The position numbers and the translations under genes were made by a program. From SAR116 cluster bacterium (lineage in GTDB: Bacteria > Pseudomonadota > Alphaproteobacteria > Puniceispirillales > Puniceispirillaceae), in NCBI GenBank assembly GCA_004212735.1, contig SHBD01000001.1, forward strand, positions 62,001 to 126,000: 64,000 bases of DNA. Reading direction: 5' to 3'. Shown here piece after piece: positions 46,812-49,429 of the stretch. The notes beneath the pieces are model-generated. The model did not search any database. It saw only the letters and a list, made by a program, of their open reading frames with translations, and was not told where the DNA came from. How positions within the stretch are numbered: position 1 is the first letter of the stretch; every line of letters begins with the position of its first letter.

Positions 46812-47022
46812 ATCCAATCCTCTTCGGTCATTTGCGTCTTCGGAAGAATAATCCTTGGGTGTCATGGCTAGCACAAAGGTGATGATGCAAACAATTGGCA
46901 AATCTGTGGACCAAGGTTCATATGTCGATTAATGTCGTGGCCATGGGTTTGATTGCTGGGCATAAAGCGCTCCCAGCCCACATATGCCGGCTGCTGATGG
47001 ATCACGAATACGAGTCTTTTGG

Positions 47023-48162
47023 ATGAATGATAGTTGGATTATCACTGGCGCAAACACCCATATGCATGGCGTTTATGGAGGCCATGACATTGCCATTGCC
47101 GATGGTCTGATCAGTGAGGTGGCAACACCGGAAATGCGCCCTTTTGATGCATCTGGCCTGATTGCCATGCCGGGACTCATTGACCTCCATGGCGATGGAT
47201 TTGAACGGCATATCGCTCCGCGCAATGGTGTCGAGTTTGATCTTGAGACAGCACTTTTGGCAACCGACCGTGAATTGATCAGCAACGGTATAACGACAGC
47301 CTATTTGGCGATGACCATCTCCTGGGAGCCGGGCTTGCGTAGCATTGAGAGAGCCGGTGAGATTGTTTCGGCTTTCAAGAAAGTGCAGTCGCGCTGTGCT
47401 TGTGAATTGCGACTGCAGCTCCGGTGGGAAATCTTCGCGCTTGAGGCAATAGCCGACATCGAGAGATGGCTTGATATGGATCCAGCACCAACGCTCGCTT
47501 TCAATGATCATCTCAGCGCCATTCTGAATGGCATGAAGCCGCATATCATCTCCAAAAACGCAGATCGGTCTGGGCTGTCAGTCGAGGAATATATCGCTCG
47601 TCTCAATGCCCTCAAGGCAAGGTCGGATGAAATACCGGCAGCCATCAGGCATCTGTCAAATCTGGCACGGAAAAAGGGCGTTACCTGTTTTGCTCACGAT
47701 GAGGCGAGCCCTGATGAACGCGCGGCAAACAGGGCGACTGGCGTGACTGTCTGCGAATTTCCGATTACCGATGCAACCGCGCATGCGGCGATTGATGTTG
47801 GTGAGGCGACCGTGTTGGGTGCGCCAAATGTTTTGCGCGGCAAAAGCCATACTGGCGCTGTTGATGCCACCAACGCAATCGCCAAGAACATCTGTTCGGT
47901 CCTTGCATCCGATTATTACTATAGCTCCCAACTGGCGGCCGTGGCAAAGCTGGGTGGCAATGATCCGGCGACCATGGCGACGTATTGGCCTCTGATTTCT
48001 GGAAATGCGGCGCAGGCTGTGGCGCTTTGTGACCGTGGCCAGATTGCGCCTGAGCAACTGGCTGACCTTGTCCTCTACCGGATTGTGGACAGTCATCCAC
48101 AAATTGTTGCTGTCTTACGCAAGGGGCAGTGCCGCCACCTTCTCGACCCGGCTCGGATTTAA
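47023..48162 (+). CDS. phnM: PhnM: alpha-D-ribose 1-methylphosphonate 5-triphosphate diphosphatase
   Basis: A 379-residue amidohydrolase, the normal PhnM length. The metal-binding LIDLHGDGFERHIAPR segment replaces the usual HxH and is diagnostic for PhnM. CFAHDEASPDERAANRATG and VLGAPNVLRGKSHTGAV are further family motifs. PhnM removes pyrophosphate from the triphosphate intermediate of the C-P lyase pathway. No other phn gene lies in this window, which is unusual. ATG 47023 is chosen over an earlier in-frame opening. Confidence 0.92.
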   Translation: MNDSWIITGANTHMHGVYGGHDIAIADGLISEVATPEMRPFDASGLIAMPGLIDLHGDGFERHIAPRNGVEFDLETALLATDRELISNGITTAYLAMTISWEPGLRSIERAGEIVSAFKKVQSRCACELRLQLRWEIFALEAIADIERWLDMDPAPTLAFNDHLSAILNGMKPHIISKNADRSGLSVEEYIARLNALKARSDEIPAAIRHLSNLARKKGVTCFAHDEASPDERAANRATGVTVCEFPITDATAHAAIDVGEATVLGAPNVLRGKSHTGAVDATNAIAKNICSVLASDYYYSSQLAAVAKLGGNDPATMATYWPLISGNAAQAVALCDRGQIAPEQLADLVLYRIVDSHPQIVAVLRKGQCRHLLDPARI

Positions 48163-48216: not shown

Positions 48217-48271
48217 ATGTCTGGTTAATGCATGCACAGTTCTGTTGTTCGCAGACGGAGGAGGCAGAAAT

Positions 48272-48550
48272 ATGGAACAGCTAAAGAGCGTCAATGCTGG
48301 GGGTAGCACCATTTTCAGTGGTCAAACCGCCTTCCAAGGATATGCTGGCCCGGTCCTGCATACTGAACGGTTAAAACTTGTTCCTATCCGCCCCTGTGAT
48401 TACGAGCCTTATCGGGCTTTCATCATGTCTGACCGTGCACGTTACATTGGTGGCCCCTTTGAGGATGAGGGAAAAGCCTGGCGGACATTTGCCTCAATGA
48501 TCGGGCATTGGCATATGCGCGGATTCGGGCTTGGCACCCTAAATCTGTGA
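48272..48550 (+). pseudogene. Truncated RimJ/RimL-type GNAT acetyltransferase
   Basis: Only 92 residues. LHTERLKLVPIRPCDYEPYRAF and the helix to MIGHWHMRGFGL match the N-terminal third of Acetyltransf_3 proteins. The frame then runs out (GTLNL, stop) before any acetyl-CoA loop. The next gene begins 25 bases later, so the catalytic part has probably been deleted. The start is ATG 48272 with a GGAGGAG site upstream, so the stub might still be translated. Confidence 0.75.
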
Positions 48551-48574
48551 TGCGTTGGATTTTGGGAGGTCTCA

Positions 48575-49429
48575 ATGACTTACAACACGCCATATCGGCC
48601 TGAGGATTTGATCAATCTGGTGGATTTTCCAATCCATCAGAACGGACCAGAGCGCGATGCGCTTATAAGGGAGGTCCATGCCCAGCTTGCTGCTGATGGC
48701 TGCGCGGTTCTCAAACGGTTTTTGACCGAGCGGGCCATCACCCTGCTGACAGAAGAGGCTGATTCGGTGGCATCCTGTGCGCACCGGTCCTTCAATCGCA
48801 CAAACCCTTATTTCACGGTGGATGACCCGTTGCTTGACGCTGCGGATCCGCGCCGCCGCTTTTATGACCGTTCAAACGCTTTCATCCCGGCAGATAATTT
48901 TATACCAACGGGTCCACTGCGTGTGATTCAGGATTTTTCCGCCTTTGATCCCTTTATCCAAACCTGCCTGCAACAGAAAAATTTCTATCGTTATGCTGAT
49001 CCGCTGGCAGATGTGATCGTCAATATGGCAGAAGAAGGCGAGGGCTTTCCGTGGCACTTTGACACAAATAATTTCACCATTACGCTTGCCATTCAATCGG
49101 CTGAGGAGGGTGGCCTGTTCGAATATGCCCCCAATATACGGGCTGAGGGTGAGAACTTTCCGGCAGTACGCGCGGTGCTTGACGGCACTTCTGATCTGGT
49201 GTGCTCACTGGTCCTGGAGCCAGGTGATCTGCAAATTTTCAAGGGGCGTTACTCTCTGCATCGGGTCACTGCATTGCGGGGCGCCACGCCGCGTTATGTG
49301 GCGATTTTTTCCTATGTTGAACAGCCTGATATGGTTGGTGCGCCAGAGCGAACGAAGCAGCTTTATGGCCGGGTGTTGCCTATCCATCTGAAACGCGCCG
49401 GGCTTCGTGACGACAGTTTTATTGACTGA
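48575..49429 (+). CDS. Fe(II)/2-oxoglutarate oxygenase related to ArpA/HalD/BesD
   Basis: A 284-residue non-heme iron oxygenase. The facial triad is H161 and D163 in GFPWHFDTNNF and H229 in RYSLHR. Arg near 235-240 would bind 2-oxoglutarate. EGGLFEYAPNIR matches the family that contains the free amino-acid halogenase BesD. Halogenases replace the Asp with Gly to seat chloride; here Asp is kept, so hydroxylation is expected. The substrate is unknown. ATG 48575 has a GGGAGG site. Confidence 0.82.
   Translation: MTYNTPYRPEDLINLVDFPIHQNGPERDALIREVHAQLAADGCAVLKRFLTERAITLLTEEADSVASCAHRSFNRTNPYFTVDDPLLDAADPRRRFYDRSNAFIPADNFIPTGPLRVIQDFSAFDPFIQTCLQQKNFYRYADPLADVIVNMAEEGEGFPWHFDTNNFTITLAIQSAEEGGLFEYAPNIRAEGENFPAVRAVLDGTSDLVCSLVLEPGDLQIFKGRYSLHRVTALRGATPRYVAIFSYVEQPDMVGAPERTKQLYGRVLPIHLKRAGLRDDSFID

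Follow-up and report, generated by a model that had tools for sequence, protein, structure and literature searches.

An HxD oxygenase of the HalD family in SAR116 bacteria and roseobacters, with a putative small carboxylate substrate

Among the closest described relatives of the enzyme studied here are the halogenases BesD, HalA, HalB and HalD (6NIE, 9OER, 7U6J and 7U6H). According to the accessible part of PMC12871659, the motif HxG/A marks a halogenase; the accessible part of PMC13244439 describes Hydrox (7JSD, 9OET) as a lysine hydroxylase of the BesD family. Both the superfamily and its HxD state are therefore already known, the latter from Hydrox (7JSD), a BesD homologue that has HxD and hydroxylates lysine. 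As far as our searches show, what is new within the literature searched is the delimitation of a further orthologous group, the finding that it lacks the lysine pocket, and the association of this group with DMSP catabolism. These searches, whose coverage largely left out subscription papers and preprint servers, returned nothing on this orthologous group and no Fe/2OG enzyme in DMSP catabolism.

The gene and its place in the HalD family

The gene lies in the window, by which we mean the whole 64,000-nucleotide stretch of SAR116 DNA that was analysed, and is an uninterrupted open reading frame of 284 codons running from ATG to TGA. Its features are as follows.

48575..49429, + strand: window-type HalD-family Fe(II)/2-oxoglutarate oxygenase gene, 284 aa (ORF, Pfam, model and tree)
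48564..48569, + strand: GGGAGG, likely ribosome-binding site, 5 nt 5' of the ATG (read from sequence)
48854..48871, + strand: codons of R94-R99; one of two invariant Arg is the aligned counterpart of BesD R77, which binds the carboxylate
49004..49066, + strand: codons of L144-T164, including the putative substrate-pocket positions L144, F158 and T164
49055..49063, + strand: codons of H161-F162-D163, proximal Fe ligands (H161 and D163 in 22/22 group rows)
49259..49261, + strand: codon of H229, distal Fe ligand (His in 21/22 group rows, Gln in 1/22)
49292..49294, + strand: codon of R240, the 2-oxoglutarate arginine (22/22 group rows; aligned with BesD R218)
49331..49426, + strand: conserved C-terminal tail, residues 253-284 (invariant residues in alignment A3)

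The window protein scores 49.4 bits against Pfam HalD (PF23169, cut-off 26), covering positions 108-214 of the 228 in the profile; down to E 1, NCBIfam gives no match and no PhyH model is among its Pfam matches. Given this score, the hundreds of relatives, and the 91 residues that are invariant across the 48-row alignment A3 (orthologues only; 47 of 71 usable loci entered, and the broken L112 copy was left out), we conclude that the reading frame is not a chance one. The invariant positions of A3 include M253, V254, R259, Q262, L263, Y264, G265, L268, P269, H271, R274, G276, R278, D280 and D284 in the C-terminal tail, which in the alignment is lacking from the BesD clade.

A profile of 48 HalD-like proteins (A1) retrieved HalB, HalD and BesD from the PDB, together with two lysine hydroxylases and three lysine halogenases, all between E 4e-28 and 1.5e-21, after which the matches fell to 1e-4. 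The orthologue-only profile A3 matched the family weakly (HalB best, E 2.9e-4). Because A3 alone makes this weak link, the family assignment draws on the wider profile, on the structure, and on hhalign, which aligned the window group with BesD-clade sequences at 97.8% probability (E 7e-13). An AlphaFold2 model of the window protein (48 rows; pLDDT 92, pTM 0.89) has the fold of BesD, HalA, HalB and HalD (Z 20-21) and of Hydrox (Z 21.1): the ten best PDB entries in VIA-align are HalB, Hydrox, HalA, BesD and HalD (Z 20.1-21.2), rank eleven is Hydrox 9oet (Z 17.8), and the first entry from outside the family has Z 17.2. The Foldseek ranking is consistent with this.

We placed the protein in a 72-row tree whose bootstrap was not fully settled, in which some rows are long-branched, and from which HalC, HalE and Hydrox itself are absent. 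There it forms one clade with 21 orthologues (support 98/99), and BesD, HalB, HalD, the 9oer halogenase (HalA) and HxD relatives, among them sequences from Peribacillus, Phyllobacterium and Tistrella, form a separate one on a long stem (95/100). A third clade (100/99) contains a Pantoea protein labelled arpA, and three rows judged by eye to be PhyH-like lie at a great distance as outgroups. The Pantoea 2OG-Fe(II) oxygenases bearing this label, which is one depositor's, and the SAR116 paralogues, which match Pfam HalD, have HxD like the window protein but differ from it in clade, in identity (about 31-36%) and in the pocket, where Ser stands for the conserved Arg and Leu and Asn occupy other sites. 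Two such paralogues, 32% and 36% identical to the window protein, are encoded elsewhere in the window genome (2.49 Mb). About 40% identity is found in a sister clade (Pseudomonas sp. MPC6, Caballeronia and two alphaproteobacteria; L192, L195, L101 and L102), of which rows L192, L195 and L102 have a C-terminal tail resembling that of the window group. Many HalD-family copies occur in two alphaproteobacterial genomes, one with nine matches (G146) and one with six (G222).

A preliminary description of the gene had assigned the protein to the BesD/HalD-like superfamily, and the Pfam match, the PDB profile matches and the best structural matches, all from the BesD/HalA/HalB/HalD/Hydrox family, bear this out. 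The alternative that it had named, a position among PhyH-like proteins, finds no counterpart in the Pfam result or in the distance of the PhyH rows. In the kind of phylogeny that it suggested, the protein falls outside the BesD/HalA-E/Hydrox clade as sampled here (98/99 versus 95/100).

Active site and substrate pocket

In its motifs, an HxD...H triad followed by a C-terminal Arg, the window protein is a Fe(II)/2-oxoglutarate oxygenase. H161 and D163 are present as first described, and together with H229 and R240 they make up the full set of residues for Fe and 2-oxoglutarate. Both Fe histidines and the 2-oxoglutarate arginine are shared with BesD, HalA, HalB and HalD, and the position of the halogenase glycine is taken by D163, an aspartate shared by every one of the 48 HalD-like rows in the alignment. 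Since the aspartate is so constant, the Pfam name "Halogenase D" appears to fit few of the proteins that PF23169 matches. One otherwise typical orthologue (L117/L038, in G007) has Gln in place of H229 (SLQRV), through either sequencing error or real variation.

The pocket is another matter. Lysine is held in BesD by E123, H137 and D143, in the numbering and on the account of the accessible part of PMC13244439. In all 22 rows of the window group these residues are replaced by L144, F158 and T164 (MAFFT, with L070 left out; the hhalign register agrees), whereas the HxD members of the BesD clade, as represented in the tree, keep E123 and D143. With less certainty, K261 is matched to BesD D239 and L263 to BesD W241. 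BesD R77 aligns with R99 by MAFFT and with R94/R95 by hhalign, and both R94 and R99 are invariant in A3. On this alignment a carboxylate anchor is plausible in the window enzyme and a pocket for a side-chain ammonium is not. Because the Glu, Asp and His of BesD are Leu, Thr and Phe throughout the group, lysine and ornithine are poor candidates, and either free amino acid would be an unlikely substrate. The preliminary reading thus stands as regards the superfamily, the retained aspartate and the distinction from PhyH; nearness to BesD in function is not supported, given the separate branch (95/100) and the absent side-chain-ammonium residues.

Neighbourhood and co-occurrence with DMSP genes

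A contig scan found 334 relatives in named genomes. The best 80 of these 334 are 64-90% identical and belong chiefly to roseobacters, alongside bins of SAR116, of Rhizobiales type and, in a few cases, of gammaproteobacteria. The bacteria that carry the group are predominantly marine; viral relatives were not found in one scan. The window-type gene has no constant neighbour among the best 80 of the 334 loci, 8 of which were dropped as rows because the target ORF was not called. In 25 of the 80 it has housekeeping genes nearby that by eye resemble RNase J or a DEAD-box helicase, and in the others the neighbours vary. In three Rhizobiales-type bins (L151, L172 and L181) it adjoins pyrE/dihydroorotase-like genes and a neighbour that is amidinotransferase-like by eye; the one such neighbour that was scanned had no family match.

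Upstream of the gene in the window are EamA, HbpS-like and PhnM-like amidohydrolase genes and a GNAT-like fragment, so that the first impression of no obvious pathway neighbours was right. The PhnM-like gene (46984-48162) matches a diphosphatase model (NF011987, 345 bits, cut-off 253) and has no phosphonate genes nearby. We set aside a phosphonate link through it, as the window-type gene keeps no fixed neighbour elsewhere. A pantothenate link was also rejected, since only an L003-type paralogue, not the window-type gene, follows panB/panC-like genes (by eye). This second HalD paralogue lies directly behind such genes in three SAR116-type genomes (L050, L054 and L056); one of them is the window's own, where it lies a few bp after panC (L050 9086-9871, G000:C13).

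The five tree rows nearest the window clade are L101, L102, L192, L195 and L197. In all but L197, which has no M24 neighbour, the oxygenase gene stands between a divergent LysR gene and a gene for an M24 protein directly downstream (Pfam, all four), a unit that the window-type gene lacks. Three of the four M24 proteins scored 316-347 bits against NCBIfam DddP (cut-off 600), and betaine-type ABC components occur within a few kb in L101 and L195. Asp377, favoured as the DddP base in the accessible part of PMC4108388, is kept in one of the four and absent from three, so that these proteins need not be DMSP lyases.

This context prompted a test of co-occurrence with DMSP genes in 199 genomes from 198 genera of one family (f26), each at least 95% complete; 35 of them carry the window-type gene and 164 do not. 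DddP is present in 33/35 genomes with the gene, over the curated cut-off in all 33, versus 79/164 without it (p 1.1e-7). The cupin DMSP lyase PF16867 (27/35 versus 59/164, p 9.8e-6) and DmdA over cut-off (28/35 versus 59/164, p 2.8e-6) behave likewise, and two controls do not: the reaction-centre protein PuhA (11/35 versus 62/164, p 0.56) and ectoine synthase EctC (11/35 versus 54/164, p 1). A tree-based test used a GyrB tree of 120 genomes (30 of the 35 gene-bearing ones and the best 90 others by GyrB score), which yielded 16 independent pairs. For DddP, 6.1 pairs changed the same way and 0.3 the opposite way (median p 0.039, range over pairings 0.002-0.63), and for the cupin lyase 7.6 and 1.1 (median p 0.039, range over pairings 0.004-0.45). 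DmdA does not pass (6.7 versus 1.3, median p 0.125), and the controls gave 3.0 versus 2.5 (PuhA, p 1) and 1.9 versus 4.2 (EctC, p 0.69).

Among 61 SAR116-type genomes, sorted by hand with no statistic, a DddP-family match was found in 16 of the 17 with the gene, broken and partial copies included, and in 27 of the 44 without. The window genome has its own DddP-family gene 77 kb from the oxygenase gene, at 598 bits against the cut-off of 600. No operon of the window-type gene with DMSP genes was seen among the loci viewed, where the context varies. DMSP genes are markers of life with phytoplankton, and such a lifestyle, if shared, could by itself explain the co-occurrence; PuhA and EctC control for it incompletely. 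In G040 (L052, 6451-7566 and 8644-9471), a further HalD paralogue and a DmdA gene (NF009133, 568 bits, cut-off 410) are about 1.1 kb apart.

Predicted reaction and competing explanations

From the directly supported features, namely the orthologous group, the fold, the conserved ligands, a lysine pocket absent by alignment and the co-occurrence, we infer an activity and a substrate class for the window enzyme. We suggest that it is a soluble HxD enzyme that uses Fe(II) and 2-oxoglutarate to hydroxylate a small osmolyte-like substrate with a carboxylate group, a statement to which, taken whole, we give a probability of roughly 0.4; that it is a hydroxylase is, as a claim by itself, very probable. 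H161, D163 and H229 would hold Fe(II) and R240 would hold 2-oxoglutarate; with both in place, O2 would be activated to give a ferryl intermediate, and this would take hydrogen from a small substrate. Because the retained Asp would fill the site where halogenases bind chloride, hydroxyl rebound and C-H hydroxylation are expected, by the chemistry of the family; oxidative demethylation or cleavage may result instead where a leaving group sits on the carbon that is hydroxylated. The substrate carboxylate is probably bound by an invariant Arg (R99 or R94).

A basic amino acid is an improbable substrate, as the acids that hold a side-chain ammonium are missing. The substrate may rather be an osmolyte-like small carboxylate of phytoplankton origin, met by DMSP-degrading bacteria, and this is the weakest step of the explanation. 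It would be a long shot to propose a new O2-dependent enzyme of the DMSP cycle, one that hydroxylates DMSP, DMSOP or a close sulfonium or betaine analogue on a carbon adjoining the onium centre and so gives a product that breaks up. Such cleavage would be akin to that by TauD, which releases sulfite from taurine; if C3 of DMSP were hydroxylated, the products would be dimethyl sulfide and malonate semialdehyde.

The very high conservation of the orthologue group (mean column identity 68%), its single-gene insertions among housekeeping genes, and the protein hydroxylases PHD2, EF-Tu P4H and Tpa1 that come next in the structural list would also suit a hydroxylase of a macromolecule, such as a ribosomal or translation protein, tRNA or lipid. 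However, small-molecule enzymes are the best structural matches by 3-4 Z units, and patchy occurrence (35/199) and decay in sister species are unlike a core modification, so that we consider a macromolecular substrate unlikely.

The decay itself raises the question of whether the gene has any present role, for it is decaying in the window's genus. Same-genus copies at the same site carry an in-frame TAA in G003 (L033) or are fragments in G004 (L047) and G001 (L048); no copy was seen in G002, of the same genus. The dN/dS of the window copy against G003 is 0.37, above that of five neighbour genes (0.05-0.32), and immediately upstream there is just a fragment of a GNAT-like gene. Yet the window copy is of full length and keeps all its catalytic residues, its dN/dS against G010 is 0.07 (although dS is saturated), the G003 assembly is 57% complete, and the broken G003 copy itself raises dN/dS. 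A relic with no present role thus has similarly low odds. The GNAT-like N-terminal fragment (48245-48550; PF13302, E 0.1) has a dN/dS of 0.76 against G003 and is probably decaying.

Somewhat less likely again is a hydroxylase of free lysine, ornithine or arginine, with which the superfamily and the fold shared with Hydrox 7JSD would agree. In three SAR116 genomes (L037, L040 and L041) the window-type gene is close to an AstE-type deacylase and a PRK07550-type aminotransferase, with a SAM methyltransferase directly upstream in two of the three and an amino-acid ABC transporter in L040 and L041. The best NCBIfam match of the L040 binding protein is Lys/Arg/Orn (161 bits, below the cut-off of 256), and the L040 aminotransferase, PRK07550, has the gamma-hydroxyarginine cyclodehydratase GntC as its second match (256 bits, below the cut-off of 415). 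PRK07550 is over its cut-off in 12/17 genomes with the gene and 13/44 without (p 0.004, phylogeny uncontrolled). Against this, the PRK07550/ChrA/GMC arrangement recurs in L223 with no HalD-like gene in the 9 kb examined, where the contig ends near the gene, and the other 11 PRK07550 loci viewed have no HalD-like gene in the stretch examined (in L216 the contig ends near the gene). We rejected an arginine or lysine pathway because most scores fall short of their cut-offs, L223 has this neighbourhood with no such gene in the stretch examined, and the pocket is unfavourable. That the protein is a halogenase, as the Pfam family name would have it, is scarcely credible for HxD (D163) in place of HxG.

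Whatever the substrate of the predicted hydroxylase, this HalD-family group, conserved and widespread among roseobacters and SAR116 bacteria, has no assigned function in the literature and databases searched, and the Pfam name could mislead annotators. The pocket as read here narrows the choice of substrates, and the co-occurrence with DMSP genes points to an inexpensive set of compounds to assay first. Should DMSP or a related osmolyte prove to be its substrate, the enzyme would bring an O2-dependent step into a sulfur cycle of global importance.
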